Assembly: GCA_947175435.1 (NCBI GenBank)
Contig: CAMWMS010000002.1
Location: 1 to 45,331, forward strand
Length of the DNA stretch: 45,331 bases
Origin: an uncultured Lachnospiraceae bacterium
Lineage (GTDB): Bacteria; Bacillota; Clostridia; Lachnospirales; Lachnospiraceae
Direction of reading: 5' to 3'
In this document: positions 2,349-27,659 of the stretch, piece by piece
Layout of the letters: every line of letters begins with the position of its first letter
How positions within the stretch are numbered: the first letter of the stretch is position 1
Notes under the pieces: model-generated
The model's input: only the letters and a program-made list of their open reading frames with translations
Database searches by the model: none
Told to the model about the DNA's origin: nothing
Translations under genes and position numbers: made by a program

Positions 2349-2464
2349 CCTAATAACTCTGCCTGATAAAATACACTTTCTCGCACGCACTGAAATTTAC
2401 ATAGTGTATTCGAAATACCGTTTATGATATTTTCTAAAAAAAATATTTTTCTTTAATAAATCCA

Positions 2465-2493
2465 TAGACATTACCTTTCAATTGTGATACACT
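2465..2493 (+). promoter_or_regulatory. Putative sigma-A promoter of small coiled-coil gene
   Basis: TAGACA (2465-2470), a 17-nt spacer and TACACT (2488-2493) precede the AGGAGG ribosome site at 2502-2507. The preceding 100 bases are AT-rich with an A-run/T-run (about 2439-2455) and hold no gene. Confidence 0.45.
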
Positions 2494-2516
2494 CATTTCA
2501 CAGGAGGATTCAACTT

Positions 2517-2771
2517 ATGGATAAGGAAACAAGAGAAATGTTTAATGCTATTTTAGAAGAAATGGGTCGAATGGAAGACAGAATCAATAAACGAATGGAC
2601 AATCGTTTCGACGGCGTAAATAGCCGCTTCGACAAAATAGAAGCCCGCTTAGAAATCATGCAGCATGAGATCAATGCTTGTAAATTAGATCATGAAACCA
2701 TCAGCCTGCTGATTAAGAAAATAGACCAGCATGACCAGCGCATCGAGGAGCTTGAGAAAAAGACCGCATAA
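2517..2771 (+). CDS. Small coiled-coil protein (84 aa)
   Basis: A highly charged 84-residue protein (MDKETREMFNAILEEMGRM...) with heptad-like repeats including RxDNRFDGVNSRFDKIEARL, predicted to form one long coiled coil; no membrane or signal segment. The start at 2517 is chosen over an in-frame GTG at 2484 because an excellent AGGAGG (2502-2507) sits 9 nt upstream and would lie inside the longer version. Such short proteins with repeated RFD-type motifs are common and usually uncharacterised in Firmicutes. It has its own likely promoter, so it is probably not part of the M56 gene's transcript. Function unknown. Confidence 0.6.
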   Translation: MDKETREMFNAILEEMGRMEDRINKRMDNRFDGVNSRFDKIEARLEIMQHEINACKLDHETISLLIKKIDQHDQRIEELEKKTA

Positions 2772-2856
2772 ATCTGCTGCATACTAATCTTTAGCACCCC
2801 TATAATTTCCATGCATAAAATAGAGTAAAACCACATAGGATTATAGGTTACAGATT

Positions 2857-3786
2857 ATGTACTATGCACTGCTTATCTTATTATTACTCGTTCTATTCTG
2901 TATGATCTTCTCATGGTACCGCAGAAGGAAGATCATCTGCCGTATCAAATGTATGGATAAATGTCAGAAATGTTCCCTGTTAGAACAACTTGCCGAACCT
3001 TTCGGTTACGCCTATCACTGCCGCTGCGGCTTCTTCTCTTCCACGCTTGATGCATGGCAGAAAACGGCCGGTTACACATGGCTTTATGACTATATGGCAC
3101 CTCGCTTCCAGATGGTCTTCGACGCTCTGCCGATCTATTTCGACTATCGCGGCAGAACATGGTTGATCGAACTCTGGAAAGGGCAATACGGCATCAATAC
3201 CGGTGCAGAAATCGGGATCTACCACGCCGACCGGATTCTCTCTGCGGAAGAATACAAGACGGCTCTCTTTGCCGCCATCGAAGACGATGAAATGCTTCCA
3301 TGCACGCTGTGTCTGTGCCGCAACGACACGGACTGTCTCAAACTTTCCGAAAGACATTGGTGGCTCACGATATTCGAGCCCGGACTTTTCTCAAACCCTT
3401 CCGAACTGTGTCTGCACGCTTCCATCTGTTTTCCCGATTCGGAAATGTGTGACGCTTTCTATGAAGGATTATCCCGCGCAGGCTATGACATGAAACAGCT
3501 CGACATTCAAGGGCTCTGCTGCTCATTCGTCTTTCGATTCTCCGACTCTGAAGACTTCAATCTGTTGACACGCTTCCACCGTCGGCTTTCCCAATGTGTA
3601 AACCGCATGTGCTGCAAATTGTACGCATACGTCACCAGACCCTTTATCCGCACTGAAGACCGCATTCTTTTCCTTTACTACTATCTTCCCGCGGCATTCA
3701 GAAGACTATTCCGCATACGCAGATTCCACAGACGCTGTCACAAAAAATACGGCTGTCGGCCTCCGAAGAGAAAGGAAAAACCATGA
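2857..3786 (+). CDS. DUF4474 domain protein, membrane-anchored
   Basis: A 309-residue protein with one N-terminal membrane helix (residues about 3-20) followed by basic residues and a Cys-rich stretch (C23, C32, C36, C39, C55, C57). Residues 63-123 carry the pattern I recognise as DUF4474: LDAWQK, LYDYMAP, a PIYFDY strand, then LIELWKGQYG and TGAEIGIY. No catalytic function is established for this family. The C-terminal end is strongly basic (RRFHRRCHKKYGCRPPKRK). Its stop overlaps the next gene's start (ATGA, 3783-3786), which indicates translational coupling with the phosphoesterase. The ribosome site is weak (AGGTTACAG before ATG). Family recognition is from memory of the motif, not a search. 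Confidence 0.68.
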   Translation: MYYALLILLLLVLFCMIFSWYRRRKIICRIKCMDKCQKCSLLEQLAEPFGYAYHCRCGFFSSTLDAWQKTAGYTWLYDYMAPRFQMVFDALPIYFDYRGRTWLIELWKGQYGINTGAEIGIYHADRILSAEEYKTALFAAIEDDEMLPCTLCLCRNDTDCLKLSERHWWLTIFEPGLFSNPSELCLHASICFPDSEMCDAFYEGLSRAGYDMKQLDIQGLCCSFVFRFSDSEDFNLLTRFHRRLSQCVNRMCCKLYAYVTRPFIRTEDRILFLYYYLPAAFRRLFRIRRFHRRCHKKYGCRPPKRKEKP

Positions 3787-4601
3787 GTGCCGGGGATCGT
3801 CTGAACCGAGCCTTTGCACAGGCCCCTGTACTTCCGCTGAATTACTGCTCGAAATATGTCCTTGTCAGCGACTGCCACAGGGGCGTGGGCACCGCTTCGG
3901 ATAACTTCCTGAAGAATCAGCACCTGTACTTTGCGGCCATGGATCATTATTATCGAAACGGCTTTACCTATATTGAATTGGGCGACGGGGAAGAATTATG
4001 GGAAAACAGGAAACTGCAAAACATCACCGAGATTCACAGCGATGTATACGACATGTTCGCCATGTTTGAGCAAAGGAATCGTCTGTACCTGATCTACGGC
4101 AATCACGATATCGTCAAAAGAAAATGTCCCGGCTACTATGAAGGCATCATTCTTCATTCACAGTCCGCGCCTGAGAAATCGCTGTACCTGACCCACGGTC
4201 ATCAGGCAAGTCTGCTTAATTCCACACTCTGGCCTCTGGCCCGTTTCCTGGTAAGATACTTCTGGAATCCACTGGAAAATCTCGGCATTTTAGACCCTAC
4301 CAGTGCAGCGAAAAACTACGAAGTAAAAGAAAAATACGAAGAAATTCTACGCAGTTGGGCCGAAGAAAACGGGCATATCTTAATCACGGGGCATACCCAT
4401 CGCCCCGTACTGCCCACCGAACCCGCCTATTATTATAACACCGGCAGTTGTGTTCATCCCCGCTGCATCACTTGCATTGAGATCGCCCGCGGCGAACTGA
4501 CACTGGTCAAATGGAGCATGCAGGCACGCATGGACAGTGTACTGTATGTGGCGCGGGAAGTCATATCCGGACCCGTTACGCTGTTAAACAGCCGTTCCTA
4601 G
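3783..4601 (+). CDS. Calcineurin-like metallophosphoesterase
   Basis: All five metal-binding motifs of the calcineurin-like superfamily are present in order: SDCHRG (D30, H32), GDGEELWE (D68), GNHD (N107, H108), THGHQ (H138) and GHTH (H204, H206). These bind two metal ions and hydrolyse phosphate esters. At 272 residues, with no signal peptide or membrane segment, it is cytoplasmic and about the normal size. The GDGEELWE variant recalls UDP-2,3-diacylglucosamine hydrolase-like members, but a Gram-positive would have no lipid A substrate, so the substrate is unknown. The start overlaps the stop of the DUF4474 gene by 4 nt, so the two are almost certainly made together; a shared envelope task is an inference. 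Confidence 0.85.
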   Translation: MSAGDRLNRAFAQAPVLPLNYCSKYVLVSDCHRGVGTASDNFLKNQHLYFAAMDHYYRNGFTYIELGDGEELWENRKLQNITEIHSDVYDMFAMFEQRNRLYLIYGNHDIVKRKCPGYYEGIILHSQSAPEKSLYLTHGHQASLLNSTLWPLARFLVRYFWNPLENLGILDPTSAAKNYEVKEKYEEILRSWAEENGHILITGHTHRPVLPTEPAYYYNTGSCVHPRCITCIEIARGELTLVKWSMQARMDSVLYVAREVISGPVTLLNSRS

Positions 4602-4655
4602 TTTTCTGTGCGCCCGACCTCCTGCCGGCGACCCACGCATACTGCGATGTCCTCA

Positions 4656-4684
4656 CTGACAATTTCCACAGTTCCACATATACT
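4656..4684 (+). promoter_or_regulatory. Putative sigma-A promoter before the amidotransferase-like gene
   Basis: CTGACA (4656-4661), 17-nt spacer, TATACT (4679-4684), about 30 nt ahead of the start codon at 4716. This suggests the amidotransferase-like gene is transcribed separately from the phosphoesterase gene. Confidence 0.5.
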
Positions 4685-4715
4685 ATAGTAATATTGCCGT
4701 CATGAGGAACATCCT

Positions 4716-5360
4716 ATGCCATCTACCGCTATCGCAATTGTCGGGCGCGCCGACGCCACACACAACTATGAAACTGCTCTCCATCATCTGGAGATTCCTT
4801 ATATCACCACGCTGTCTGTGGAGGAAGCGGCCCTTGCCAGTCATCTGCTGCTGCCCGGCGGCGGTGACATCACCCCCGCCTTCTTCGGGCAGAGCAACCA
4901 CGGTTCCTATAATATTGATACAGAACTGGATATCATACAGCTGCAGGCGCTCAGCTTTTTTATGAAACAAAAAAAGCCCATACTGGGCATATGCAAAGGG
5001 ATGCAGCTAATCAACGTACAGCTCGGTGGAACGATCATACAGGATGTCGACACTGCAGATATGCACAAGTGGATCGGTAAGGATCAATACCACTATGTCT
5101 ATCACAGCGGACTGAACCGCATGGATTTCTTCTATCAGCTATACGGCACAAGTACGCTGGTCAATTCCGCCCATCATCAGGCCGTGGACCGGCTGGGCGG
5201 CGGGCTTACTGCCGTATGCCGCTCCGGCGACAATATAATCGAGGGAATCATGCACACAAATCTGCCCGTCATGGCCGTCCAGTGGCATCCCGAACGCATG
5301 ACGGAGACCGGCGGCGAACATCTCTTACGATACTTCGCCGCACAGCAGCCTATTTCGTAA
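4716..5360 (+). CDS. Class I glutamine amidotransferase-like (peptidase C26) hydrolase
   Basis: The 214-residue protein has the C26/PuuD-type layout: LLLPGGGDITP (45-54), the nucleophile elbow GICKGMQ with Cys93, HHQAVD (153-158) and the catalytic pair in QWHPER (His191, Glu193). The PGGGDI and WHPE motifs match gamma-glutamyl-gamma-aminobutyrate hydrolases and related enzymes that cleave gamma-glutamyl bonds; the exact substrate cannot be read from sequence. It is somewhat shorter than most PuuD proteins. No synthetase partner is adjacent, so it probably acts as a stand-alone hydrolase. It converges on the DUF2974 gene with the ends overlapping by 11 bp. Confidence 0.85.
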   Translation: MPSTAIAIVGRADATHNYETALHHLEIPYITTLSVEEAALASHLLLPGGGDITPAFFGQSNHGSYNIDTELDIIQLQALSFFMKQKKPILGICKGMQLINVQLGGTIIQDVDTADMHKWIGKDQYHYVYHSGLNRMDFFYQLYGTSTLVNSAHHQAVDRLGGGLTAVCRSGDNIIEGIMHTNLPVMAVQWHPERMTETGGEHLLRYFAAQQPIS

Positions 5361-6513
5361 ACATCTGCTCCAACTGTAACATCCCCTCATCGAATCTCTC
5401 TCTTTGCAGTTCAGTCCTGCTCTTTACCCGTTCTTTGGCATTCAGCGAGACAATGTCAAAGAGAGACTTCATGATTCGGATCATTATCTTGCCGGTTTCC
5501 GGATCGATCTCCTTAAGCGCCGCACTGATCTTTTGTATGCTTTGAAACCAGTTAGCGGTAAAGTCGATCAGATTATCGGTCTCGGAAGCAAGTATGATCT
5601 TATAGAAAGTATCTACAAAGGTGTGCATCTGCTCCTGATCCAGTGATAGAATCCACTGGTTTAACGCCTCATCCATGAACCTGCGCCCCTCGTATAATTC
5701 CTCGACGATCCGGAAGTGATCGCCATCCACCAGCCATGTATAAGGATTATGCTGTGCCAGCCCGATAGTTTTGCTTTCCACTACCCGGTAAGCGCCGTCC
5801 GTATACAGAAGCATTCCCACTAAAGAAGAACGCGGTATCGTCTTATGGATTCTGTCTTCGATCTCACCGTAAGCGCTCTGCTCCTTCACTTCCGGCCGGA
5901 ATCCCGGTCCGTCATGGTCGAAGATCGCAAAGATGCGCTGCCGCACCTCTCCTCGGCAGTTCATGCAGGCGTAAGTAGCCAGATTGCCGCCCTTAGAGTG
6001 TCCGCCCACATAGAAATCCCCTTGTATCCTGCGTGCCACACGTTCCAGATATTCCACACTCATGTACTGTCCACGCACCGGCTCCGAAAAGGCAAGATTC
6101 ATATCCTCTTTCCATCCCACGATGTTCTCGTCGGTTCCGCGGTATGCCACATAGCTTATGCCGTTCGGCAGAAGAAATGTCACCGCCGAAAACTGTGTCT
6201 CCGTCTCAAGGTCAATATAGTTTACATAACTTCCAACTTTCAGACCGCCGAAACGTCTGCCATGGTACATTGCCTGAAAAAGCGCCGTGTTCTCCTTCCG
6301 ATAGCGTTCATCGCTGTACAAGCTGTCATACTTCTCATGTTCAGCAATCTCACGCAGACTCACCATTGCCTGTTCCTCATCGGTACCGGGCGCCACCTCG
6401 TCGAATTTCAGATAAGCAAACTGACTGAGCACCAGACTGTCCACTTCGCTAAGAGGCTTCTCCTGCAAAGTATAATCACCGTATTCTTTCAGATAATCCA
6501 ATATCGTCCCCAT
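5350..6513 (-). CDS. DUF2974 (Mbeg1-like) alpha/beta-hydrolase
   Basis: The 387-residue cytoplasmic protein carries the family's start (MGTILDYLKEYG), the lipase-3-like YVAYRGTDENIVGWKED segment (121-137) and the nucleophile elbow GGHSKGGNLA (Ser173). FDHDGPGF follows, typical of DUF2974. These resemble lipases but substrates are not known. I chose ATG at 6513, with AGGAG (6525-6529) 11 nt upstream; the in-frame GTG codons at 6525 and 6522 overlap or abut that site. It lies 21 bp downstream of the nucleoid-associated protein gene and is probably cotranscribed with it. Confidence 0.8.
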   Translation of the reverse strand: MGTILDYLKEYGDYTLQEKPLSEVDSLVLSQFAYLKFDEVAPGTDEEQAMVSLREIAEHEKYDSLYSDERYRKENTALFQAMYHGRRFGGLKVGSYVNYIDLETETQFSAVTFLLPNGISYVAYRGTDENIVGWKEDMNLAFSEPVRGQYMSVEYLERVARRIQGDFYVGGHSKGGNLATYACMNCRGEVRQRIFAIFDHDGPGFRPEVKEQSAYGEIEDRIHKTIPRSSLVGMLLYTDGAYRVVESKTIGLAQHNPYTWLVDGDHFRIVEELYEGRRFMDEALNQWILSLDQEQMHTFVDTFYKIILASETDNLIDFTANWFQSIQKISAALKEIDPETGKIMIRIMKSLFDIVSLNAKERVKSRTELQRERFDEGMLQLEQMFTK

Positions 6514-6534
6514 ACCCTTCACCACTCCTGCTTT

Positions 6535-7560
6535 CTACAGCTTCGCTTCCAGATGTTCGATATTCTTGATCAGCACCGAGATCGTTCCGTCGGGATTCGT
6601 GATGAACTCCACGCTCCTCGGATTCTTATACTGTTCCATCGGTATCTTAATCTCGATCCCCGTATCCGTGTACAAATGCTGGCTCTGATACTTGCGCACC
6701 GTATTTTCACTCTGGGGCTGAATCTCTTCCTTCACCATATCATACTTTTCCATTTTATCCTGAAAAGCCACTTTTAATTCCGGCTGTTCCTCGAAGATAC
6801 GCTCCGCCAATTCCTCAACCACGAAACCGCCCTTCTCCTCGATCTCCTCCTGTATGATGCTCTTGGCACGCATCTGCTTCTCGAACCGCTCCGTCTCGTC
6901 GTATCCTTCCTTCTGTACACTCTCCACGGCACGGCTCACTATGGACAGTTTGGATTTATGCGACAGATGCGCGCTGCACTTTAAGAAGAGAAAAGAGAAA
7001 TAATTGGTCTTCTCTCCGTTCACCTCATACTTTTTCTCGATCACCCACAATGTCAGATCCTGCAGTCTTATGATCGCCGCTTCCGTCAACCGCTGGGACT
7101 CCGACGGAAGAATCGACTTATGCCGGATGATCTCATTGCTGTTGCCCTCTCCGTCCTCTGTCGCCATCGTGCGGTGCGTGTAGAGGGACTTATAATTCAT
7201 CTTAAGAAGAGCCAGATACTCGTCCTCCCCCTCCTTAAAACGCACCACCATCAGATCCGCCGCCGGAATATCAATATTGCTGTTCATGATCTCATAGAGC
7301 TGCGTGGCAATATCCTTGCTGACCGACACAAAATCTTCGTCCGCATAGGCGTTCAGCAGATGGTATACCTCCGATTCCTCTTTATAAAAACGACACTCCT
7401 TCGCATCGTCTCCGGAGCTGATCCGTGCGATATGTTCTTTCAGAAACTCCGCCACTTCAGAGCCGTATTCCAGTTCCGTATCCGACAACACCGGCATGCC
7501 GATGGTAGAATCCAGAATATGCACGATCACATTCTTAATTCTGATCTCTTCTTTATTCAT
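6535..7560 (-). CDS. Nucleoid-associated protein (NA37 / YejK-like)
   Basis: The 341-residue soluble protein looks like the 37-kDa nucleoid-associated family: an N-terminal half with VIVHILDSTIGMPVLSD and AADLMVVRFKEGEDEYLALLKMNY, a middle part (ESQRLTEAAII, YFSFLFLKCSAHLSHKSK) and a C-terminal region that ends in a beta-rich VEFITNPDGTISVLIKNI. In E. coli, YejK/NdpA binds the nucleoid; the role in Firmicutes is not well defined. Family members also turn up beside defence or mobile genes, but here the neighbours are housekeeping-like. The start has GGAGAAG upstream. It is probably an operon with the small gene upstream and the hydrolase downstream. Confidence 0.78.
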   Translation of the reverse strand: MNKEEIRIKNVIVHILDSTIGMPVLSDTELEYGSEVAEFLKEHIARISSGDDAKECRFYKEESEVYHLLNAYADEDFVSVSKDIATQLYEIMNSNIDIPAADLMVVRFKEGEDEYLALLKMNYKSLYTHRTMATEDGEGNSNEIIRHKSILPSESQRLTEAAIIRLQDLTLWVIEKKYEVNGEKTNYFSFLFLKCSAHLSHKSKLSIVSRAVESVQKEGYDETERFEKQMRAKSIIQEEIEEKGGFVVEELAERIFEEQPELKVAFQDKMEKYDMVKEEIQPQSENTVRKYQSQHLYTDTGIEIKIPMEQYKNPRSVEFITNPDGTISVLIKNIEHLEAKL

Positions 7561-7580
7561 CTTATGTACTTCTCCCGTTC

Positions 7581-7955
7581 TTATTTATATTTCTCAGGAT
7601 AATCCGTCCCTGTCTCGGTCTGCAACAGATTCACATACCGCTCCGGATCATGCTCCATCTTAAGCATGGTATGAAACGCCATCAGTAACATCTTATCCCC
7701 ATTGTTCTTCATGTCATCTCTGCCCCGATCCATCTGCGCCTTGAAGTGATCCATCTGCCAGACCATCAGGTCCACTACACTGTACCCCTCTATCTTATAC
7801 TCACATAAGAAATCCTGATGTTCCAGATAATATGTAAATTCCCGAAAGACCCCTTCCGACTGTGTCAGCATCTGCCAGAATTCCTGCAGAAACTCTTCTC
7901 CTTCACCTGCATAATGACACAGTGCACGTGCCCATTCATATGCTCTCTCTTCCAT
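7581..7955 (-). CDS. Small acidic conserved hypothetical protein (124 aa)
   Basis: I do not recognise a named family. The protein is acidic, soluble, mostly helical and rich in aromatic and Met residues (EEFLQEFWQMLTQSEGV, MVWQMDHFKAQMDRGRDDMK). GGAGGG lies 6 nt before the ATG at 7955. It is first in a three-gene leftward group with the nucleoid-associated protein and the DUF2974 hydrolase (20- and 21-bp gaps), so it may be a partner of the former. Real gene likely from the ribosome site and tight packing; function unknown. Confidence 0.65.
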   Translation of the reverse strand: MEERAYEWARALCHYAGEGEEFLQEFWQMLTQSEGVFREFTYYLEHQDFLCEYKIEGYSVVDLMVWQMDHFKAQMDRGRDDMKNNGDKMLLMAFHTMLKMEHDPERYVNLLQTETGTDYPEKYK

Positions 7956-8079
7956 AGTGACCCTCCATGCCGAAACCTCCGATCGTCCCGCTTCTTATCC
8001 ATCTTACCACATTTTAGTTCTTTTTACCGCCCCATATTTATATACTGAAAATATAATCGAGCGGAAAGCGATACCGTCT

Positions 8080-9375
8080 ATGTCAATACTGGAGCGACTC
8101 AATGACCTGATCTGGGGATTTCCCCTGCTTGCGCTGCTGTTAGGCACGCACATCTATTTTACCGTAAAGCTGCATTTCCCGCAGCGCAATCTCTTCTATG
8201 CCCTGAAGCTCTCTCTGGGCAAGGCCGACAATACTGAGCAGAACCTGTCACCCTTCTCCGCTCTCGCCACCACACTGGCAGCTACGCTGGGCACCGGCAA
8301 TATCATCGGCGTCTCCACCGCCGTAGCTCTGGGCGGCCCGGGTGCCATCTTCTGGTGCTGGATCACCGGTATTCTGGGCATGGCTACCGCATACAGCGAA
8401 TGTTACTTAAGCGTCCTGTTTCGCAGCCGCCGTGATGACGGCTCCTACGTCGGCGGTCCAATGTACGTGTTGAAAAACGGTTTACATAACAATAAACTTG
8501 GCAGTCTGTATGCCTTCTGCACACTGCTTGCCGCTTTCGGTGTCGGCTGTACCACACAGGCTAATTCCGTCACACAGGCGGCCTCCGCTTCCTTCGGTCT
8601 GTCGCCCCATCTGGTAGGCATCGTTCTGGCCCTTCTCACCGCGGCGGTCATTCTGGGCGGTGTCCGCAGTATTGCCAATCTGTGTGAACGCACGGTTCCG
8701 GCCATCAGCTTCGTCTATCTGTTGGGTTGCATACTGCTGCTGATCCTCTATCGAAGCGTACTGCTCGATACCTGTGTACTGATTCTGAAAAGCGCCTTCG
8801 GCTTCCGCTCCATGGCCGGCGGCATGGCAGGCGCAGCCCTGCAGCACGCCGTACGTTACGGCATCGCCAGAGGCCTCTTCACCAATGAAGCGGGAATCGG
8901 AACTTCCGCCATCGCCGCAGCAGCATCCCATGTCAAGGATCCCCGCATACAGGCGTATGTATCCATGACTGCCGTATTCTGGGATACCGTGGTCATGTGT
9001 CTGATCACCGGCCTGGTTATCGTCGCCAACATGCTCTACGATCCTGCCTCCGTCACAGGAGCCGCCGAAACAGGACTGACTGCGGCAGCTTTTGCGCATC
9101 TGCCCTATGTCGGAAATGCTTTCCTGACGATCTCGCTCGCCGCCTTCGCTGTCACCACGTTGATCGGCTGGTCATATTTCGGAGAAAAAGCAACGGAATA
9201 CCTTATGGGTAAAAAAGGTATCCCGCTCTATAAGCTCGCTTATACTATAATGATCTATCTCGGCGCCATCATCCCGATGCGTCTCGTCTGGGAGAGCACG
9301 GATCTGATCAACGCCTTAATGGTACTGCCCAATGTGCTGGCACTCTACTGCCTGCAAAAACATATCAGATCTTAA
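8080..9375 (+). CDS. Sodium:alanine/glycine symporter (AgcS/AlsT family)
   Basis: The 431-residue polytopic membrane protein follows the AGCS pattern: [17 protein letters not shown] near the N-terminus, then [30 protein letters not shown], and [18 protein letters not shown] in the middle, all hallmarks of Na+-coupled alanine/glycine import. The ATG at 8080 ([13 protein letters not shown]) is preferred because family members start there; upstream in-frame codons to 7957 would add 41 residues unlike the family and overlap the neighbouring divergent gene's start. The ribosome site is modest (GGAAAG at 8063). Its end overlaps the convergent MCP gene by 11 bp. Confidence 0.9.
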
Positions 9376-10642
9376 ATGTCGACGCGATCTCCTGCAGGGA
9401 CCGGCTGCTTCTGTCCAGAATCGCCATTTTGCGTAGGATCTCCTCAGAACCGACATTGGTATGCTGCATAGCCTCCGCCACGTTGTGGACTCCGTCGGCA
9501 ATCACGCTGTTTAACCCTGTCACCGTCTGCAGGGATGCCAGCATCTCCTCCACGGAAGCACCCATTTGCTCGGACGCCGCTCCCAGATCGCTGGCAATAT
9601 TGTCGAAGAATGCCGCATCCTTCTGATACTGCTCGGCCGTGTCCACCATGGAATGATAATCCTGAATCACGTGATCCGTCATGAAGCTTAACAGCTTCGT
9701 GGCGCTGTCTCTTAAATCCATAACGGAACTCACCACTTCATCTATTACTTTCTGTATCTTATCGACTGTGACCTGTGAATTCTCTGCCAGACTCCGCACT
9801 TCATCGGCAACCACAGCGAATCCTTTGCCCGCCTCACCGGCTCTTGCCGCCTCGATTGCCGCATTTAACGCAATCAGATTCGTCTGGTTGGCAATACCGC
9901 CGATCTCCTGCGAAAGACTTTTGATAATCTCAATCTTCTCCACTTCCTTCAGCGCATGCTCCAATTCACGCTCCGTGCTGCGATAGATCAGACTCGCCTG
10001 CTTCTTAGACTCCACCGTACTCTCATACAGTTCTTCCGCGCGGGTATTAATCTCTTTGGAAGCACCCGCGGAATCAGAAGCTTTGTGCGCAACGTCATCC
10101 ACCGCCGCACCGATCTCATTGCTTGCCGTGCTGATGGATCGTGTCACTTCCGCCGCTTCCTCAACCTGACCAATGAGACTCTCCATAATCTGGTCCATCT
10201 CGTCAATATTATTATTTAGGGTCGCCATTTCGGTATACGCAGCCGAAGCAGTCTCGGCTATACTCGTCGCTTCCTTATTAGTGCCTGTGGTAATCTCCTT
10301 GATGTGCTGCTTAATGCTGCTGGTGGCATATGTAACTTCTTCCATCTCATCCTTAAATCCGTCTGCCACCTTTGCCTTACTGCCCACACTCTCCTGCCCG
10401 CTGAAATTACCTGTCGCGAATTGCTTAAGCTCCGCCAGCGGACGCAGCGCCTTATTGAACGTGGTTCCTACGATCAAATCAACCGCTGCCATTCCGATCA
10501 CGCCGATCACAAGTCCTGCACCGACCGCACTGCCCGTGTCCGCCTTACCGATACTCAGAGTGCTTACGACAGAACCGATAAACAAAACGGCAAAAGACGT
10601 TATCGAAACAATGATCATCAGCTTTCCTTTAATTGTCTTCAT
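9365..10642 (-). CDS. Methyl-accepting chemotaxis protein without a ligand-binding domain
   Basis: The 425-residue protein begins with two membrane helices (about 8-28 and 38-60) separated by only a ten-residue loop, so no extracellular sensor domain is present. A HAMP-like linker ([18 protein letters not shown]) follows, then a long coiled coil with the signalling tip [32 protein letters not shown], the most conserved part of all MCPs, which engages CheA/CheW. The C-terminus lacks a CheR-docking pentapeptide. By inference it senses the membrane, HAMP state or intracellular cues. No che genes are nearby. AGGAGG lies at 10652-10657. Confidence 0.9.
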
Positions 10643-17179: not shown

Positions 17180-18079
17180 ATGGAACTCAGAGTTTTACAA
17201 TATTTTCTCGCAGTCACAAGAGAACAGAGCATTTCGGGAGCGGCCGAATCCTTACATCTTTCGCAGCCTACGCTTTCCAGACAGCTTAAGGAAATGGAAG
17301 ATGAATTAGGCAAACAGCTTTTTATCCGCGGAAACCGCCGCGTCACCTTGACGGAGGAAGGCATGATCCTGCGTAAGCGTGCAGAAGAAATCATGGAGCT
17401 TGTGAAAAAAGCAGAAGACGAGATTTCTTTGTCAGATGAAACCGTTGCCGGTGATATCACGATCGGCGCAGGAGAAACAGACGGTGTCAGACTGCTTACA
17501 AAAGCGGCTCAGAAAGTACAGAGTAAATACCCGCTGGTCCACTTCCATATCGTGAGCGGGGACAGAACCACTGTTGCAGAAGAAATGGACAAGGGTCTGA
17601 TCGACTTCGGTCTCTTACTCGGAGAGATTGATACATCAAAATACGAATCTATAAAAATACCCTACAAAGACAGCTTCGGCGTCTTAATGCGGCGTGATTC
17701 TCCGCTCGCCGTCAAAGAAACAATTACTCCGCAGGATCTGATGAATCAACCGCTGATTCTGTCCAGACAAATGATTCATGACTCGGATTTTCACAGACTT
17801 TTTCATTGTGACATGGAAAAACTGAATATTGTGGCAACGTATAACCTTCTTTACAACGGCTCGCTCATGGTGGATGAAGGCATGGGATATGCCGTCTGCT
17901 TCGATAAGATCATAAATGTTTCAGGGGAAAGCAGCCTCTGCTTCCGCCCGCTTGCACCACAGATGGAAGCCGGGATGAGCCTTGTCTGGAAAAAGTATCA
18001 GGTATTCACAAAGGCTGCCGAAAAATTCCTGTTAACGTGCCGGGAAATGCTTCCCGCGCTCCACAGCCATATCCTGTAA
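17180..18079 (+). CDS. LysR family transcriptional regulator
   Basis: The 299-residue protein has the canonical N-terminal helix-turn-helix (MELRVLQYFLAVTREQSISG, LSQPTLSRQLKEMEDELG, LFIRGNRRVTLTEEG) and a periplasmic-binding-like effector domain (about 90-295). AGGAG precedes the start. It is transcribed away from the 98-aa/DUF3737/MBL unit, the usual geometry for a LysR protein that controls its divergent neighbour and itself. Effector unknown. Its last 48 bp overlap the end of the convergent HipA-like gene. Confidence 0.92.
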   Translation: MELRVLQYFLAVTREQSISGAAESLHLSQPTLSRQLKEMEDELGKQLFIRGNRRVTLTEEGMILRKRAEEIMELVKKAEDEISLSDETVAGDITIGAGETDGVRLLTKAAQKVQSKYPLVHFHIVSGDRTTVAEEMDKGLIDFGLLLGEIDTSKYESIKIPYKDSFGVLMRRDSPLAVKETITPQDLMNQPLILSRQMIHDSDFHRLFHCDMEKLNIVATYNLLYNGSLMVDEGMGYAVCFDKIINVSGESSLCFRPLAPQMEAGMSLVWKKYQVFTKAAEKFLLTCREMLPALHSHIL

Positions 18080-19207
18080 TTCCTCTATCCGTATGTTCAC
18101 CGCATTTACTATGGCTTCTATGCGCTCTTCATCCATATATTCGGAAGAAGCAAATACATCGCGGATATCATCCTCCAGCATTTTAAGCTGTTCAAACGGT
18201 ATCCAGCTATAATCTGATACAAGCTCCATCTGCCTGCCGGCATCTGCATAAAAGGGTTTTGTTTCCACAGGATCATAGCCATTAATATTCCTTGTCAGTT
18301 TATCATGCCATAGGCTTGTTCCGCTGTCAAATACAGGTGCCGGCCCTATCCACTCCAATGTATTGACATTTCGCACTGCTCCGAAATTACCGAAATGGCG
18401 GTCGGTATTTGCCAGCAGAAAGTCGTACACCAACAGATAGTCAAGAAACTTTCTCATGCATGGAATGCCTAACTGACTGCATGCCTGTATAAAATGTTCA
18501 TATGCAGAATTCCGGCTGCTTTTTTTCAGACTCCGGTTTATGCTTACCGCACTCACCAATTCCGTGTCTGTATTGATAAAATCTTCACATACACTATACG
18601 GAATCCCGTTTTCCCATAACAGGGTATAACTCACATAATTACGACAACCTAACCTCCGGTGCAGCTTTGTAGCCACAACCTCATTTAACGGCTCCTGCAT
18701 ATATGGATTGCTTCCGGCTTTGATCAAACATCTCTTCCCATTTACGATCTTCCATTTCTTTTTTAACCATCCGTCCGATGTATTACACGGTGACATCATA
18801 TCTATTCCCTGACCATTCACCGGTTGTTCAAACAGAATATTTCCTACATCATCCGAAAATTTATTCTCAAAAAAATTAACTGCGGACCACGCTAATTCAC
18901 TGTCCGCCGGCTTCATCCAATATTGGTCTGACAGGCTTAACCCATAGCATTTCATCAAAAGCTGTTCCGGCCGGTTCACGTTCAACTTCTCAAGCGCAGA
19001 CCGTATTCCGGAACGACTTGCCGGAATTGCCCTGCCATACCACCATTCATTTAAATCTCTTTTATTGGGGATTCCTGTTCCGGTACCAATACCGACCGGA
19101 AGATACCTTAGATCCAGCGGTTCTGTTACTCTGATAATAGCTGCCGTGTCATCATCAAGCTCCAAATCCACGACCGGCACATTTTTGTTCATCAGTGTAC
19201 ATTTCAT
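18032..19207 (-). CDS. HipA-like serine/threonine kinase, orphan
   Basis: The 391-residue protein shows HipA-family kinase motifs in its C-terminal half: CLIKAG with K163 (ATP lysine), EPLNEVVATKL, the catalytic loop LLANTDRHFGNFGAVR (D269, N274) and FDSGTSLW (D294, metal Asp). The N-terminal 150 residues (PVGIGTG, EWWYGRAIPASRSG) differ from classical HipA. HipA kinases phosphorylate a tRNA synthetase or other targets and are normally silenced by a HipB antitoxin; no HTH partner is adjacent. ATG at 19207 has GAGGTG upstream and is preferred to the longer frame. Substrate and toxicity are unknown. Confidence 0.72.
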   Translation of the reverse strand: MKCTLMNKNVPVVDLELDDDTAAIIRVTEPLDLRYLPVGIGTGTGIPNKRDLNEWWYGRAIPASRSGIRSALEKLNVNRPEQLLMKCYGLSLSDQYWMKPADSELAWSAVNFFENKFSDDVGNILFEQPVNGQGIDMMSPCNTSDGWLKKKWKIVNGKRCLIKAGSNPYMQEPLNEVVATKLHRRLGCRNYVSYTLLWENGIPYSVCEDFINTDTELVSAVSINRSLKKSSRNSAYEHFIQACSQLGIPCMRKFLDYLLVYDFLLANTDRHFGNFGAVRNVNTLEWIGPAPVFDSGTSLWHDKLTRNINGYDPVETKPFYADAGRQMELVSDYSWIPFEQLKMLEDDIRDVFASSEYMDEERIEAIVNAVNIRIEELQDMAVERGKHFPAR

Positions 19208-19311
19208 AAGTTCACCTCTTCTAACAAATAGTATGCCATATATTTTTAGCTGTAACAATCTCTTTTTCGTGTTCTTGCTTCCAACAACAGTCCCTTTATC
19301 AGGCTTCTATA

Positions 19312-19884
19312 TTAAGCAGAAAACAAGTTAAAGTCATTATGCTTATGAGCATACATATTATCAATAGAATGTATTTTGGAAGCTATCAGGAAATTCATTA
19401 ACAAAGCAATTTTTCCAACTCCCATAATTGCAATACAGGACCTGGTATTTAATACCGTATGCGACCAAATAGAATAAACTAATCTATATGCAGGATATAA
19501 CGCTGCAATAAGACCAAAAGCAAAAAACGTATAAACAAATATCCGTAAAAGATTAAGAATAAGGAAGCGAACATATAATTTGTTGTGAAAAGATTTATGT
19601 GAAGGAGTCATAAGATCAGCCTCAAACCGCTTATCAAAAATGTCAAGAATCCGTTTCGAGCTGGATTCGGTTATGTCATAAAGCTCAAGAACCTGTCTAC
19701 CATAGCCGTCATTATACACCAGAACATCCGCCGTACAGCAATCTCCATTCATATATAACTTATAAGTACATTGATATCCGTTTTTCTTCTTTTCATTTAC
19801 GGAAATTGGTTCATATATTCCACCAAGCATTACAAATTCATCAATGGAAAAAAGTCCCGTTCCATATGTATATTGGATTAGCAT
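19312..19884 (-). CDS. Small membrane protein of unknown function (190 aa)
   Basis: Not recognised. An N-terminal soluble part of about 95 residues with beta-rich character (YGTGLFSIDEFVMLGGIYEP, CTYKLYMNGDCCTADVLVYN) precedes two hydrophobic segments (about 108-132 and 148-165). GGAGG sits 6 nt upstream of the ATG at 19884; the frame extended to 19950 runs into the terminator hairpin and is not credible. It lies between the NACHT gene and the HipA-like gene on the same strand; a functional link to either is unproven. Confidence 0.6.
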   Translation of the reverse strand: MLIQYTYGTGLFSIDEFVMLGGIYEPISVNEKKKNGYQCTYKLYMNGDCCTADVLVYNDGYGRQVLELYDITESSSKRILDIFDKRFEADLMTPSHKSFHNKLYVRFLILNLLRIFVYTFFAFGLIAALYPAYRLVYSIWSHTVLNTRSCIAIMGVGKIALLMNFLIASKIHSIDNMYAHKHNDFNLFSA

Positions 19885-19916
19885 AGCATTCCTCCGTGTG
19901 TATATTATTAAGTATA

Positions 19917-19947
19917 TTAAAAACAGCCTGCACCTGCAAGCTGTTTT
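19917..19947 (-). terminator. Terminator after the NACHT gene
   Basis: AAAACAGC (19920-19927) and GCTGTTTT (19940-19947) form an 8-bp stem; read on the reverse strand the stem ends in a run of T. It separates the NACHT gene from the small membrane protein gene, whose start is only about 35 bp further on. Confidence 0.65.
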
Positions 19948-20076
19948 CAAGACTATTACTGGCGGATTACAGTCACGTTTCCTTTCATGCTAAAGTAGAC
20001 AAATACACTGGAAAAGAAACTGAAACACAGCACAGTTCTTTCGGCAATAACACAAATTTATGCGGAAAACTATTAT

Positions 20077-23000
20077 CTATAAAATGCCGCCATTACGTTT
20101 CAGCTCTTCTTTTAGTTCTGAATCAGCTATAATGTTAGAAAAGCTGCATCCACAGACTGCCAGTCCAGGGGTATATTCAAGCTGCTGTAATTTCTCCCCG
20201 GTATCAGCATTTAAGCGCATAAGCTGATAGTTTTCATAGCTGCCTATAATATCTGACTCTCCCCATGGAATAGCGAATTCCCAGCAGGCATATCCGTCAA
20301 AACCACCAATCCCTTTTTCAAAACCTTGTTTCATCTCCTCGTAGGTACAATTGCGATAATCATCATGGACAAATATATAGCAGGAATTTTTAAGGAAAAT
20401 TGCTTTTTTAGCGTCGTCTGATAAATAAACATAGCTAAATCCATTCTCGTCATTCTGGTACTTTGATAGTGCTCGCTCATGCTTGTAAAATATGAATTCA
20501 AGGACAACTGGCGGCGCAGAGAGGAAAACCCGCTTATTTTTTTCCAGCTTATAACATTCTGGAATGGGAATGTTTAAGCGTTCTCTTTCCAAAAAGAATC
20601 CCTGTGTTACCCAATAAGCCTGCACGCCATTTTCATACTTAGCGCCCGTAATTCCCAAATCACCATGATGAGGAATAAAGTATGGAAAAAGATCATCTGT
20701 CAGTTTCGGCAATAGATATCCCCATGAAAACTGATAGTATATTTTATCCTTTACTCTTTTTCTCTTATAAAATTCACACCTGCTTTCTACATGATTAGCT
20801 CCGTTAATCCAGTCCTCTACAAGAGCTATTTCAATATAGCCATCCGTATAATTGGCATTCGCAATGCGCTCGTTTTCTGCCGGCTCCAATATCAGGTGGG
20901 AAGTGCCGGAAGAAAACTGATATTCCAGACACCGATACTGCGTTGTAATCAGAAGCCATTCACCGGAACTGTCAATACACATGTTGCAGACGTTTTCATT
21001 TTTGCTCATGGTCGAGAAGCAAACGGACTGTTCACCGGTGCTTGTATTTAACAGGACGATCTTTTCATGATCCTCTCTGGTGAAATTCAACGCCATAAGC
21101 TGGAGGCGTGGCTCATAACAGCAGCATCCGATAAAATATTCCCGGTCAGAAAAGCAGTAGGCGTTTATAAGCTGCAAGGGAGAGCCGCCAAAAACGGATA
21201 TCCCGTTAAACATGTGTACCAAAAAGAAACGAGACCTTTCTAAATCAGCAATCATATCTGTACAATTATGATAGGCAATATTGTACTTTAAAATAATGGT
21301 ATCTTCTTCTGAATCCCACTCATAGACATTCGTATCCGTGCCGACAATGAACCGGTTATTTTTCGGCGCAACAGAAGTCGTAAAAGTAAGCTCCCGTTCA
21401 TGATCAGAGTCGGTAAGTAATTTATTTATTCCGGATATCGGATATTTCATCAATACAGCGAAGCGTGTTGCCGTGATACTGGTAAGATAACAATTGTCGG
21501 GATACATAAAGTAGAATTCATCAGGGTGCTCCGAATGGGCATGGATAGCATTCGGCGGCATGTTGTTTTCTTTTGTCAGATTATCAAAAATGGCCCTGGT
21601 CTTCCCGCTCGCGCAGAAGAACTGTTCTATCTGCATCGTGTCATAATTGAACAGCAGAAAACTCTTTGTTGATGGAATATACTTTGCAGTAGGCATGGTT
21701 TGCGGCATCCCGTTATATGTATATAACACTTCCATGTAACCATTCATTATCGAGATCGTGAACAACATGCATTGAATGGGAAACTCATCATCTTCATCAT
21801 TGCATTCTGCATCATCATACTCCCCTTCGTATAAATTATATTCAGCCGTGAATCCATAAATCACCGATTCAATATGCTCCGCATACAGTTGGGTCTCATA
21901 TAGCAGTTCATTGCAGGTACAGGCATGGACTGTCTGGTCCTCTAAAGAAAATCCATAGATCGTTTTACTGTCACACACCATAAGGAGTCCCTTGGAATCG
22001 CCGGTGAAGGAAAAACTGTTCAATTTATTATGTTTTTCCAGAGGTAGTAACAATTTGTATTCTTTATCCGGAAGTGAGAGGTCATACAACCCGAGGCTGA
22101 TCTGGATGCCGTCTCCAGTGGATTCTTGTTGCTTTGTGGCAAGATATTTTCCATCCGGAGATATCTTCATAAAACCTGTTGGTGAGAAATCCGTAATTCC
22201 CATCGGATCTTTTGAGGACAACTCATACTCTAATTTCCCGGATAAAATATCCCAGCATTTGATTTGCCCATTCATGTCTATTGTAAAACACTGCATATCG
22301 TGGTATAGGAAATCAATAACACAATTTTGGTGATCTTCCGGTTGAAAGTTCTTAATATATAGCTTACTTCCGTCAAAATTTGCTGCAAGAGTTTCCGTGC
22401 TGCCTTTTTTGCTGCATGTAACGTTGAAAAAGTTGCAGTGTTTAAAATCAAGCCCTCCTAAATTTACACCAGATAGTTCTTCCCTGCCCTGAAGGATAGC
22501 TGAAAGGGTATTTTGCAACAGATAGTAGATATCGTATCTGTCTGCACACAATTTCCGGCAGTAATCAAGAACACGTTCCAATACCTTCTGCTCATCGTTT
22601 CCTAATTCCGGCAGGTACCAGTTTCCAGTATCTGTATTGAGTAAAGGACGGTTGCGGTGCTCCATTAGTATCTGGCTTATGAACGCCCTTTTATGGTGCT
22701 GCCAATAAAAAGTATTTAAAAAGTCATGGTAACTTTTTGGAGTATCCTTAGTTCCGCCATTCTGAAAAAATTGTCTGACATTGATACACTGGAGCAGAAA
22801 AAGCAGCTGTACATCCCATATGGCAGAAAAGTAATCGCGGAAATGATGATGTATAAAGGAATAACGGTTTCTTTCACCAAAATCTTCGGTGATGTTTTGA
22901 TATTGATATAAAATACCGAGATAACCATGTATGCAGTTAATAATATCCTCCACATTCACACGGCCGTTTTTATATAAGGATTCGGCAGTCTGCTGTAGTA

Positions 23001-24651
23001 TCCGCGGCTTGTACTCAAAATCTTTAAAAGGTATTTTCGCTACATCCATACATAAAGACTGAATGCATGCAACGGAATTACAAATTAACATCTCTAAATC
23101 AGCATCATTCATGGAAAAGCAATCATTCTGCTCAAACTGCCAGCCTATATAGGGCAGAATAAAGTCCAAAACAAATGAGGTCTGACAGGCATTAAACGGA
23201 TTTGTACGGGTATCTGCCGCATGCTTGCGAATGTTGTAAAAACAGGAATCCTTATGAAAGAAATGGTATAGGATCTCTCCGGGGGTTTCGGGAATGAAAT
23301 TCGTAGCCTTTTCCGCGGTGAACATACACAGGAAAAGTGGGATTCGTATGCAATTAAGCAGAGACCTGTTGGACATATAAAGCCCGATCAGGGTTTCATT
23401 GATGTTACTCTGTTTAAAATAGGTTTTGATATCACTGTCTTCCAACCCAATCAGCTGTACATTTTTAAACTCTGCAGCATAATAGGCAGCCTGTGTTTCG
23501 CGGCTGGTAGTAATGATACGAATATTCGGATAGGTATTTAGTACGGAAATCTCATTGCTGAGCATAGTACGGATAGAAAGCTTGTCGTTGGATTTTACTT
23601 CATTGAATCCATCTAACAGGAGCAAGTAGCGTGGAATATGAACTTCCGGTGTCCTCTGGAATTCCTTCTCGATCATATCAAGCGTACTGTCATCTACGGT
23701 ATCAAGAGTTGTATGATTTTCATAGATCTGGCCAATGTAGCGCGTAATGAAATTGCTTTTCCCAAGAGATTCATTATACCAATCTTTAATCTGTCCCGGG
23801 CAGAGGTTTAGTTCAATGAAAAACGGAATCGGGCACCCGGTCCGGAATTTTCTTTCTTCTTCATTTTCATCTAAGAATTCTTCACGCATTAGGTGGTGAA
23901 GGAAAGTTGTTTTACCAATACCTCCTTCGCCTGTTATGGCAATATTCTCCGTTCCTGATTTACAGATGTCCATAACTGAATTTATGCTGCCGTCCACTTC
24001 ACGGTAACGGGCAGGGAAATTAGGTTCAACTACATATCCTTTGGGCAGGATCGTCTGTATGATATCAAGAGAAGAAAAACGCCCACCTTTACTGCGGGAT
24101 GCAAGAAACGCTCTTTTTGAACACTGCCACAACGCGGATTCTTCATGGTATGAGGGGGATATTTTGATTAATTCATATACGTTAAAATATTCTTCTCCCA
24201 CCTTCGGATTACGGGATTGATGCTGAATTGTATTGTAATTTCCACAAATAATACATAGAGAAATGAAATGTGAAAGCTGGTCATCATTTGACGGATCACA
24301 GCAAGAGATTAAAGCTTCCTTCATATTATCAGGTAAATATTCATCTGCCGTTATCTGATTGCATAATTCATCATAAATTCCCTTATGGCGTCCAACTCTG
24401 GGAAGCCATCTTGTGCTTATGCGTTCGCGCAGCTTTGCATCTTCGCCTCCAAACATTATGCCTGCTGTGATATTCTTCGATAGCGGACGCCTGCTTTTGC
24501 CTTTACTAAAGACATTCTTTGCAGTCTGGGTTACATTCAGAGCATGGTCTATTCCATTTTCTTCAAAGAGGAGCATATACAAATCCGCCTGTATAAGTCC
24601 CAACTCATTGCTATAGTGCGCAATCGTATTCAATACAGAACTCAGTTCCAT
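20077..24651 (-). CDS. NACHT-type STAND ATPase with C-terminal propeller-like region (NLR-like)
   Basis: The 1524-residue protein has four parts. Residues 1-220 are helical and unassigned (includes AGIMFGGEDAKLRERIS and LSHFISLCIICGNYN). Residues about 235-450 are a NACHT NTPase: Walker A ITGEGGIGKTTF (239-250), Walker B LLLLDGFNEV (343-352) and sensor TTSRE (381-385). A winged-helix/helical arm follows, ending in FIHHHFRDYFSA (599-610), the motif that closes many bacterial NACHT modules. A short pentapeptide-like run (LSGVNLGGLDFKHCNFF, about 726-742) leads to about 770 residues of beta-strand repeats (CFTIDMNGQIKCWDIL, MKISPDGKYLAT), best read as one or two WD40-like propellers serving as sensor. 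Such proteins include bacterial anti-phage NACHT proteins. No known effector nuclease is visible. GGAGG precedes the ATG. Role inferred. Confidence 0.85.
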   Translation of the reverse strand: MELSSVLNTIAHYSNELGLIQADLYMLLFEENGIDHALNVTQTAKNVFSKGKSRRPLSKNITAGIMFGGEDAKLRERISTRWLPRVGRHKGIYDELCNQITADEYLPDNMKEALISCCDPSNDDQLSHFISLCIICGNYNTIQHQSRNPKVGEEYFNVYELIKISPSYHEESALWQCSKRAFLASRSKGGRFSSLDIIQTILPKGYVVEPNFPARYREVDGSINSVMDICKSGTENIAITGEGGIGKTTFLHHLMREEFLDENEEERKFRTGCPIPFFIELNLCPGQIKDWYNESLGKSNFITRYIGQIYENHTTLDTVDDSTLDMIEKEFQRTPEVHIPRYLLLLDGFNEVKSNDKLSIRTMLSNEISVLNTYPNIRIITTSRETQAAYYAAEFKNVQLIGLEDSDIKTYFKQSNINETLIGLYMSNRSLLNCIRIPLFLCMFTAEKATNFIPETPGEILYHFFHKDSCFYNIRKHAADTRTNPFNACQTSFVLDFILPYIGWQFEQNDCFSMNDADLEMLICNSVACIQSLCMDVAKIPFKDFEYKPRILQQTAESLYKNGRVNVEDIINCIHGYLGILYQYQNITEDFGERNRYSFIHHHFRDYFSAIWDVQLLFLLQCINVRQFFQNGGTKDTPKSYHDFLNTFYWQHHKRAFISQILMEHRNRPLLNTDTGNWYLPELGNDEQKVLERVLDYCRKLCADRYDIYYLLQNTLSAILQGREELSGVNLGGLDFKHCNFFNVTCSKKGSTETLAANFDGSKLYIKNFQPEDHQNCVIDFLYHDMQCFTIDMNGQIKCWDILSGKLEYELSSKDPMGITDFSPTGFMKISPDGKYLATKQQESTGDGIQISLGLYDLSLPDKEYKLLLPLEKHNKLNSFSFTGDSKGLLMVCDSKTIYGFSLEDQTVHACTCNELLYETQLYAEHIESVIYGFTAEYNLYEGEYDDAECNDEDDEFPIQCMLFTISIMNGYMEVLYTYNGMPQTMPTAKYIPSTKSFLLFNYDTMQIEQFFCASGKTRAIFDNLTKENNMPPNAIHAHSEHPDEFYFMYPDNCYLTSITATRFAVLMKYPISGINKLLTDSDHERELTFTTSVAPKNNRFIVGTDTNVYEWDSEEDTIILKYNIAYHNCTDMIADLERSRFFLVHMFNGISVFGGSPLQLINAYCFSDREYFIGCCCYEPRLQLMALNFTREDHEKIVLLNTSTGEQSVCFSTMSKNENVCNMCIDSSGEWLLITTQYRCLEYQFSSGTSHLILEPAENERIANANYTDGYIEIALVEDWINGANHVESRCEFYKRKRVKDKIYYQFSWGYLLPKLTDDLFPYFIPHHGDLGITGAKYENGVQAYWVTQGFFLERERLNIPIPECYKLEKNKRVFLSAPPVVLEFIFYKHERALSKYQNDENGFSYVYLSDDAKKAIFLKNSCYIFVHDDYRNCTYEEMKQGFEKGIGGFDGYACWEFAIPWGESDIIGSYENYQLMRLNADTGEKLQQLEYTPGLAVCGCSFSNIIADSELKEELKRNGGIL

Positions 24652-24843
24652 AAAATTCCTCCCTGGTTACCATTTTGTCCCCTCTTCTGTTACCGACATA
24701 AAATGCAGATTCCAGTATGCTGTGTATATAAAAAGAAAGGGGGATGGTTTTATGATAACACATGTTTGCGCGGTATAAAACATATATTTCGACAAGTATA
24801 GTCAAAGTATAATAACTGCAGCTTCACTTCACCTTAAAAAAAA

Positions 24844-24932: not shown

Positions 24933-25307
24933 ATGGCAAGAGATAGAGGAATGCAGGAAAACAGAAGCAGAAAAAATACCGAATGTGAAATTACTATTAC
25001 AATAATACGCGATTGGATAGGTTTCTTCTTAACGGTCACCGGATTTTTCCTTAGTCTTTCAGAAACCGTTCATATTGATGTGCAGATTCAAAGGAATATT
25101 GATATAGATGTTTACATTAGCTTTTTTGTGATAGATGATACACAAAGGAATATGGAGTATCATCCTTCAAATCCGGATGATACTGTAAACAATAAGAAAA
25201 GGGATAATTCCGGCGGGCAAAGGCACCCTATAGAATGGGCGTACATAGATTTGACGGATTATTTACAAGAAAAATCAAAACGAAATAATCAAAGGATAGA
25301 AAGGTGA
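24933..25307 (+). CDS. Possible small membrane protein (124 aa), unrecognised
   Basis: The frame starts at ATG 24933 behind AAGGTGG. It encodes a polar, Arg/Asn-rich N-terminus, one hydrophobic segment (WIGFFLTVTGFFLSLS, about 29-44), then a strand-like region and a charged C-terminus (YIDLTDYLQEKSKRNNQRIER). No family recognised and codon usage looks ordinary. The surrounding DNA is gene-poor and contains inverted repeats, so this may be a mobile-element cargo gene or not a gene at all. Confidence 0.35.
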   Translation: MARDRGMQENRSRKNTECEITITIIRDWIGFFLTVTGFFLSLSETVHIDVQIQRNIDIDVYISFFVIDDTQRNMEYHPSNPDDTVNNKKRDNSGGQRHPIEWAYIDLTDYLQEKSKRNNQRIER

Positions 25308-26499: not shown

Positions 26500-27435
26500 T
26501 TATAAATTCTTTTCAAATAAATTACCTGAACTATCAATAATATAAATCTGCTTCTCATTAATAAAAGTATAATCAAGTAAAGAGTCACAAGGAATTTCGC
26601 TGTCCAACGTCCAGCTTTTGCCAGCGTTATCTGTTACAAAAAGTTCATAGACAGCATTTTCCCTTACCACTTTTAGTATAATTATCCCATTTTGTTTATT
26701 ATTACCATAAAACACAGGAATGTACCCATCTACATATTTCACATCTTCTGTTCTGGGAAATATCTCTACAGTTTCCCATGTTTCAGCTCCATCGGTTGTT
26801 TGATATAGATAGCTGTCAGTACCATGATAGGTCACAGCTATATTTATTGTTTCATTGTCGATCACAGTAATTCCTTGTGGATACCCTGAAATCGTATTTG
26901 TTAATTCTCCCGTAAATGAAAATGTCTGTCCACCATCATCGGTAAAAAACAAAAGCTTTGTCATCTGACCGAGTGCCGGGGTAGAACAGTATAAAAGGTA
27001 TCCATCCCTATCATTTGCAAAACTGATAAATATGCTGCCGGCATCACAGTTTTCAGAATAATCACCATATTTTATTAGTGTCTGATTCCAATTGTTACCG
27101 CCATTTCTTGTATATTCGACTATTAGATGCTCATTGTCTGATGAAAAGTAAGTTACATATGCGAGCTGTTCATTTATAAATGCGGCCTTTGCATATCCAT
27201 CCGTAAAGCTATTTACATTCTCTAAAATCTTAACTGGTTTAAAGTTCTCTAAACCATTTTGGGTAAAAAGAATTTCGTTCTCAAAAGATAATCCCCATGC
27301 GCTTTTCGCAGTGCACATATAAAGTTGTTTTAATTTATATGGACACTCGATTGATTTATAATCTCTATTATTACAAGATACTAATAAAAGGCCACAATAG
27401 AGTATGAGTAAAATTTTAAATTTGTTTGCTATCAT
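26500..27435 (-). CDS. Secreted lipoprotein with Asp-box (BNR/Ycf48-like) repeats
   Basis: The 311-residue protein has a lipoprotein signal (LLILYCGLLLVSC, lipid Cys at about 21) and then a beta-propeller suggested by four Asp-box motifs: TRNGGNNW, TDDGGQTF, TTDGAETW and TDNAGKSW. Similar proteins include sialidase-like and Ycf48-like propellers, but the sialidase active-site Arg triad is not evident, so binding rather than catalysis is likely. The start at 27435 is chosen because AAGGAAAA lies upstream; longer frames have no ribosome site. It is attached to the outer face of the membrane. Confidence 0.72.
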   Translation of the reverse strand: MIANKFKILLILYCGLLLVSCNNRDYKSIECPYKLKQLYMCTAKSAWGLSFENEILFTQNGLENFKPVKILENVNSFTDGYAKAAFINEQLAYVTYFSSDNEHLIVEYTRNGGNNWNQTLIKYGDYSENCDAGSIFISFANDRDGYLLYCSTPALGQMTKLLFFTDDGGQTFSFTGELTNTISGYPQGITVIDNETINIAVTYHGTDSYLYQTTDGAETWETVEIFPRTEDVKYVDGYIPVFYGNNKQNGIIILKVVRENAVYELFVTDNAGKSWTLDSEIPCDSLLDYTFINEKQIYIIDSSGNLFEKNL

Positions 27436-27467
27436 CTTAAATTTTCCTTGTGTAATCATAGTATATC

Positions 27468-27659
27468 CTAAGCTCTGCCCATCTTTATCGCTGTTGCCCA
27501 ACTATCTAATGCTTCTGTTTCAAGCGATTCCCTGTCAATTCTGCTAACGGTATGAATACAAAGTTCCAAGAATCGTTTAAGACACATCTTATTCTCATAA
27601 TGTATGAAAATGTGGGGATACAAGCACTCTATCGTTTCCATATTCTTTTCGTTCTCCAC
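27468..27659 (-). pseudogene. Short fragment, possible tail of the decayed HTH gene
   Basis: A 63-codon frame with GTG start (ECLYPHIFIHYENK, LELCIHTVSRI). It begins only 15 bp past the stop of the upstream decayed gene and ends just before the lipoprotein gene. I do not recognise it; it may be a frameshifted remainder of the HTH protein's C-terminus, or non-coding. Confidence 0.3.

Follow-up and report, generated by a model that had tools for sequence, protein, structure and literature searches.

A rare NACHT-propeller STAND protein of an uncultured Lachnospiraceae bacterium with an undescribed N-terminal head and a possible transcriptional output

Bacterial nucleotide-binding, leucine-rich-repeat-like receptors (NLRs) are in most accounts sensors whose output comes from an N-terminal effector. 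The account of bNACHT25 gives these proteins a tripartite architecture, with PD-(D/E)XK heads in clade 6 and no readily discernible effector in clade 14 (PMC12169576). Among the signal transduction ATPases with numerous domains (STAND proteins) there are also transcription regulators, such as MalT, and AfsR, whose DNA-binding part is N-terminal and for which SARP repeats 11 or 22 bp apart are reported (PMC10936776). A transcriptional output in conflict systems is not a new idea, since ECF-like helix-turn-helix (HTH) domains in some conflict proteins were taken in the TRADD-N paper to indicate a transcriptional response (PMC8195603); homotypic adaptor domains are treated in the EAD paper (PMC7159879). 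Here we analyse a stretch of 45,331 nucleotides from an uncultured Lachnospiraceae bacterium (contig CAMWMS010000002.1; hereafter the window), which encodes on its minus strand an intact STAND protein of 1524 residues (Table 1), and ask which of these outputs its N-terminal head may serve.

Its sequence places the protein among STAND switches of NACHT class: the NACHT match lies above the Pfam cut-off and the P-loop and subsequent motifs are present, in agreement with the NLR-like architecture proposed in a preliminary description of the window. The long propeller half noted there is resolved by a structure model into two tandem β-propellers, with a predicted sensing role. In Apaf-1, a nucleotide-binding oligomerisation domain is followed by two propellers. 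The window protein has the same order of an oligomerisation domain and two propellers, but it differs in having NACHT rather than NB-ARC, in its low template-modelling scores and in a head that has no death-fold assignment. It shares with bNACHT proteins the central NACHT, the C-terminal sensing half and the N-terminal effector position (PMC12169576), and differs in its double propeller and in a head that lacks a family match and possibly binds DNA. With Avs (AVAST) proteins it shares the STAND switch; however, no PADLOC Avs model matches the window protein, whose single PADLOC match up to E 1 is mad8 (0.017).

Relatives of the protein retain the NACHT-propeller core and, judging from their sequences, exchange the head (for Avs2/LmuA-like, HamA-like, hydrophobic and one unassigned N-termini). 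When genome contigs were searched with a profile built from three sequences, 135 pattern stretches came up, 10 of them encoding relatives (L017 is the contig already counted as L007). The head of the window protein is common to ten loci (the window, L005, L008-L014 and L016), of which one, L010, corresponds to the locus of the window in a second genome, with a gene 98% identical and the same neighbours. At L015 the core is kept (NACHT 59% identical) and the head is not (15%). The apparent head of L006 is nuclease-like, matching the LmuA and Avs2 models and, weakly, NERD (0.0011), and thereby resembles both the Avs2 head and the PD-(D/E)XK heads of bNACHT25/32 (PMC12169576); the head segment of L007 matches HamA1 (4.3e-6), and L056 has a hydrophobic segment in place of the head. 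A sensor core with swappable outputs would be expected to show such exchange, which bears out the exchangeable N-terminus of the preliminary description. The single domain that it had drawn over residues 1-220 does not hold, since a head of about 145 residues is followed by a segment retained along with the core. Two distant relatives, L057 and L058 (6.7e-18 and 9.5e-17), were used solely as relatives lacking the head; the N-termini of their genes (5745-10595 and 2204-8446, respectively) resemble serine/threonine protein kinases by eye. L062, without the head, was left out. Close to the end of the arm region a pentapeptide-like match was seen in the relative P0003 only (E 0.13).

The head is confidently modelled as all-helical (predicted local distance difference test score 85.0, predicted template-modelling score 0.87), but the model has no clear structural match. 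Pfam gave no accepted match for the head, and nothing significant was found in PDB and BFVD structures or in PHROGs (best 0.018). Its best weak structural matches include lambda-repressor-like HTH regulators, with Stl and PrgX among the weak matches, and hhalign placed the head against HTH at 0.082. A scan of 15 members found no sequence match to HTH families, bar two single-member winged-helix matches (0.044 and 0.21). The best PDB-sequence match, a glycoside hydrolase (0.0076), is regarded as chance. A homotypic adaptor of the EAD type was considered and set aside: the own genome assembly (82% complete) holds one head match, the protein itself. We found no publication on this head in a search covering part of the literature, and we take it to be an undescribed domain on a known protein class, for which a role can be proposed.

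The head is not confined to NACHT proteins. Its profiles drew in seven further genomes, in which it lies on STAND-type proteins of about 760-780 residues (L024, L025, L026, L037, L038, L039 and L040), and by sequence various types of clostridial STAND protein carry it. Pfam was run on L024 and L025 only, with AAA_16/NB-ARC-like matches in both and tetratricopeptide repeats (TPRs) in L025; STAND-TPR is our own label for this second group. The head-profile matches G313, G595, G474 and a second match in G531 were dropped as chance, the genes at their loci being unrelated.

In both groups, arrays of three direct repeats, spaced by roughly one helical turn, precede genes that carry the head. Ahead of nine distinct NACHT genes with the head, a GGTAAC-like hexamer returns after 23 bp (22 in L005) with 5-6 of its six letters alike, the array ending near the ribosome-binding site, and in most of these loci a looser third copy lies in between. 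L005 has three nearly perfect copies at 11 bp spacing, and the other STAND group with the head has an ATTGAC-like unit three times at 11 bp. To quantify this pattern, the best triple within 150 bp upstream was scored with a threshold of 14, the spacings and threshold having been chosen after the first loci had been seen. Of the 18 head-bearing genes, 13 scored at least 14 (6/9 NACHT, 7/9 others), compared with 3 of 159 control open reading frames (ORFs), which were mechanically called, at least 150 residues long and drawn from 21 loci, the window and L010 both contributing. None of the 18 genes was counted twice (L010 is the window locus, L017 the L007 contig and L059 the L040 gene, and L026, with the same upstream sequence as L025, was not double-counted). 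Among the three high-scoring controls, one shares its intergenic region with the head gene of L039 and one is the integrase-like gene of L005, with differing repeats. Six head-less relatives scored 9, 9, 16 (L007, low complexity), 10, 11 and 9. Genes fetched after the pattern had been seen gave it in L060 and L061 and not in L063. Single-locus tests with 300 shuffles each were modest (window p 0.007, L005 0.000, L008 0.18, L009 0.29). Within the bacterium's own genome, strict matches to the pattern are confined to this locus, and with two mismatches allowed a reversed control also gives 1 match; the exact pattern has no match in viral contigs. Separately, direct repeats of the CTACCTACCC type lie ahead of the integrase-like gene of L005 (12484-12640), perhaps as integrase arm sites, and at L063 (2770-2994) an inverted repeat, without direct repeats, precedes the head-bearing STAND gene.

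Given the repeat arrays in both head-bearing groups and the weak HTH-type matches, we favour a head that would bind DNA at its own gene, in an autoregulatory manner. The repeats are a putative target; they are 11 bp apart in L005 and in the second group of STAND proteins and 12 + 11 bp apart in the window, to be compared with the 11 or 22 bp of SARP repeats. The protein parts from AfsR and MalT in that the Pfam matches of protein or head include neither a SARP nor a LuxR-type domain, in repeats that lie near the start codon in most loci, and in a propeller sensor. The SaPI1 repressor Stl, compared here through a weak structural match and not through sequence, has neither ATPase nor propeller, and its operators have inverted repeats. 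An RNA element is less likely, because the repeats of L025 and, by eye, of L060 lie upstream of a promoter-like site. The N-terminus, called an effector or adaptor in the preliminary description, indeed lacks a known enzyme match, but it is not clearly an effector, and the evidence leans to DNA binding, which could itself be the output. That the head is instead a novel effector enzyme or toxin, with unrelated repeats, seems very unlikely: the want of a fold or family match would suit it, as would a position occupied by nuclease-like heads in relatives, but the head has few invariant polar residues, and on other STAND proteins it brings the same kind of repeat array.

Our tentative reading is thus of a STAND switch whose head binds the repeats of its own gene and whose expression is switched by a trigger in a defence setting. 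In the resting cell the head would sit on the three direct repeats and set expression. The propellers would bind a trigger, most likely one made by a phage or mobile element; nucleotide exchange would lead to oligomerisation, as in other STANDs, and this would alter the arrangement of the heads on DNA. Expression of the receptor, and perhaps also of a divergent small membrane protein, would then be switched, and the small protein or the receptor assembly may damage the infected cell. The protein would be akin to AfsR, MalT and other STAND regulators of transcription, but at work in defence and with another head. Two points lower the weight of this reading: the promoter before the L038 repeats is recognised by eye only, and L006 too has a small divergent hydrophobic ORF.

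This small protein bears on a rather doubtful alternative, that of a canonical bacterial NLR in which the heads of the NACHT oligomer are adaptors that gather or open the divergent small membrane protein, the repeats only setting expression. Of the 7 testable loci with the head, 6 have a divergent small hydrophobic ORF that starts within 320 bp, compared with 41 of 162 control ORFs. At L014 such an ORF runs off the contig; the ORF of L012 is Phage_holin_4_1 (2.1e-24). The window-type ORF is common to L009, L010 and L011, with a third-position excess against L009 and L011, and the hydrophobic segment of L056 lies on the protein's own N-terminus. A profile of the ORF matched 8 of 299 family genomes, strongly in two (the own genome and G944, the L011 locus; the rest at E 0.0009-0.009), both strong matches adjoining this NACHT gene and belonging to the profile by construction. 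Yet two of three head-less relatives also have such an ORF, as does L006 with its other head, a locus outside the 320-bp test, whereas L013 has none and L005 no clear one before the contig end. The loci are also non-independent, four being one clade, and differ in partner type. The L016 ORF aligns at 19%, and the L012 and L014 ORFs seem unrelated, by look rather than formal comparison. Furthermore, the hydropathy of the window ORF is borderline (1.54; 1.34 in the unrelated ORF of L005), and between the window and L010 it has nonsynonymous changes only, which counts against a partner. The small membrane protein is a weakly supported candidate partner.

It is also unlikely that the protein is a STAND regulator acting outside defence, on a mobile element or some cell process, although several contexts would fit this. 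By eye, genes resembling serine recombinases are near L025 and L037-L040 or divergent from them, and genes resembling relaxases are near L024. Close to L063, on plasmid pRUMAL02 of Ruminococcus albus, relaxase and mobC genes are annotated. L005 (MT836118), an unannotated faecal 'phage' record with a full-length relative (38.7%), was taken for a mobile element and not a phage, its genes being read by eye as integrase and conjugation-type, including a conjugation ATPase. The L013 relative sits in a record titled plasmid, despite the absence of any match to the window protein or head among the 72,556 plasmid records of PLSDB. Stl and PrgX, both weak structural matches, regulate mobile elements (PMC9638917). 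Against such a regulator stand the Avs2/LmuA-like and HamA-like heads on the same core and the defence genes at some loci. Within 8 kb of the L010 gene lie GmrSD, a match to a type II restriction enzyme model and an N6/N4 methylase; Ppl lies near L012 (2.4e-31) and PDC-S50 near L013 (4.5e-14). The mobile and defence contexts at some loci lend support to the preliminary description; no clear defence gene was seen among the 2, 2 and 1 neighbouring genes tested at L009, L011 and L016. No housekeeping neighbour is shared, by eye, in the ORF lists of relatives. A conflict role of the NACHT protein appears likely.

The window and L010 may represent a changing defence-gene spot. The GmrSD, restriction and methylase genes of L010 (230-5692) are not seen in the window and lie beside a short remnant of the window's gene at 26500-27501. 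Just downstream of the NACHT gene is a 212-residue ORF (19312-19950, minus) that Pfam, PADLOC and NCBIfam leave unmatched and that is shorter (111 residues) at this position in L010, and two genes downstream is a HipA_C-like protein (18032-19258, minus) below the Pfam cut-off, with a PADLOC match to PDC-M03A (2.7e-13). As partners both were rejected: they recur in L010, itself the same locus, and were unseen by eye at L009, L011, L012, L013 and L016.

The NACHT protein is rare and patchy, because matches came from 2 of 61 genomes of relatives, 2 of 392 genomes in the order and 5 of 299 in the family, the own genome included each time, and it is the sole NACHT match in its own assembly. Viral contigs gave no relative, whether the query was the protein itself, its three-sequence profile, the STAND protein of L038 or the small ORF. 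G+C is 35-43% across the gene's stretch (16-28 kb), against 45-54% leftward and 43-50% rightward. Substitutions between the window and L010 genes (23/14/66 at codon positions 1/2/3) point to clear purifying selection.

Table 1. Features of the NACHT locus, in window coordinates
Feature	Position	Strand	Remarks
NACHT/STAND gene	20077..24651	-	1524 codons, intact
N-terminal head, residues 1 to ~145	24217..24651	-	all-helical model; also on other Clostridia STAND proteins
Linker and pre-NACHT segment, residues 146-232	23956..24216	-	retained with core upon head exchange
NACHT domain, residues 233-414	23410..23955	-	sole accepted Pfam domain (match at 237-414)
Arm region (name by analogy), residues 415-735	22447..23409	-	contains FIHHHFRDYFSA
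β-propeller 1, residues 738-1073	21433..22440	-	structure model
β-propeller 2, residues 1126-1483	20203..21276	-	structure model
Putative operator, direct repeats GGTAAC / GGGGAC / GGTAAC, 12 + 11 bp apart	24666..24694	-	adjoins likely ribosome-binding site
Promoter-like site, TG ahead of second hexamer	24752..24779	-	~1 such site expected by chance in scanned stretch
Divergent small ORF, 118 residues, candidate partner	24951..25307	+	basic start, one borderline hydrophobic segment

Taken as a bacterial NLR with transcriptional output, a proposal that we put forward with some reserve, the protein would carry a new head that, on NACHT-propeller and other STAND proteins, reads three phased direct repeats, while the same core elsewhere bears a killing nuclease head. 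If this is true, one core with either a nuclease-like or a repeat-linked head would join the immune STANDs to regulators such as AfsR and MalT, and how one switch serves both outputs would become testable.
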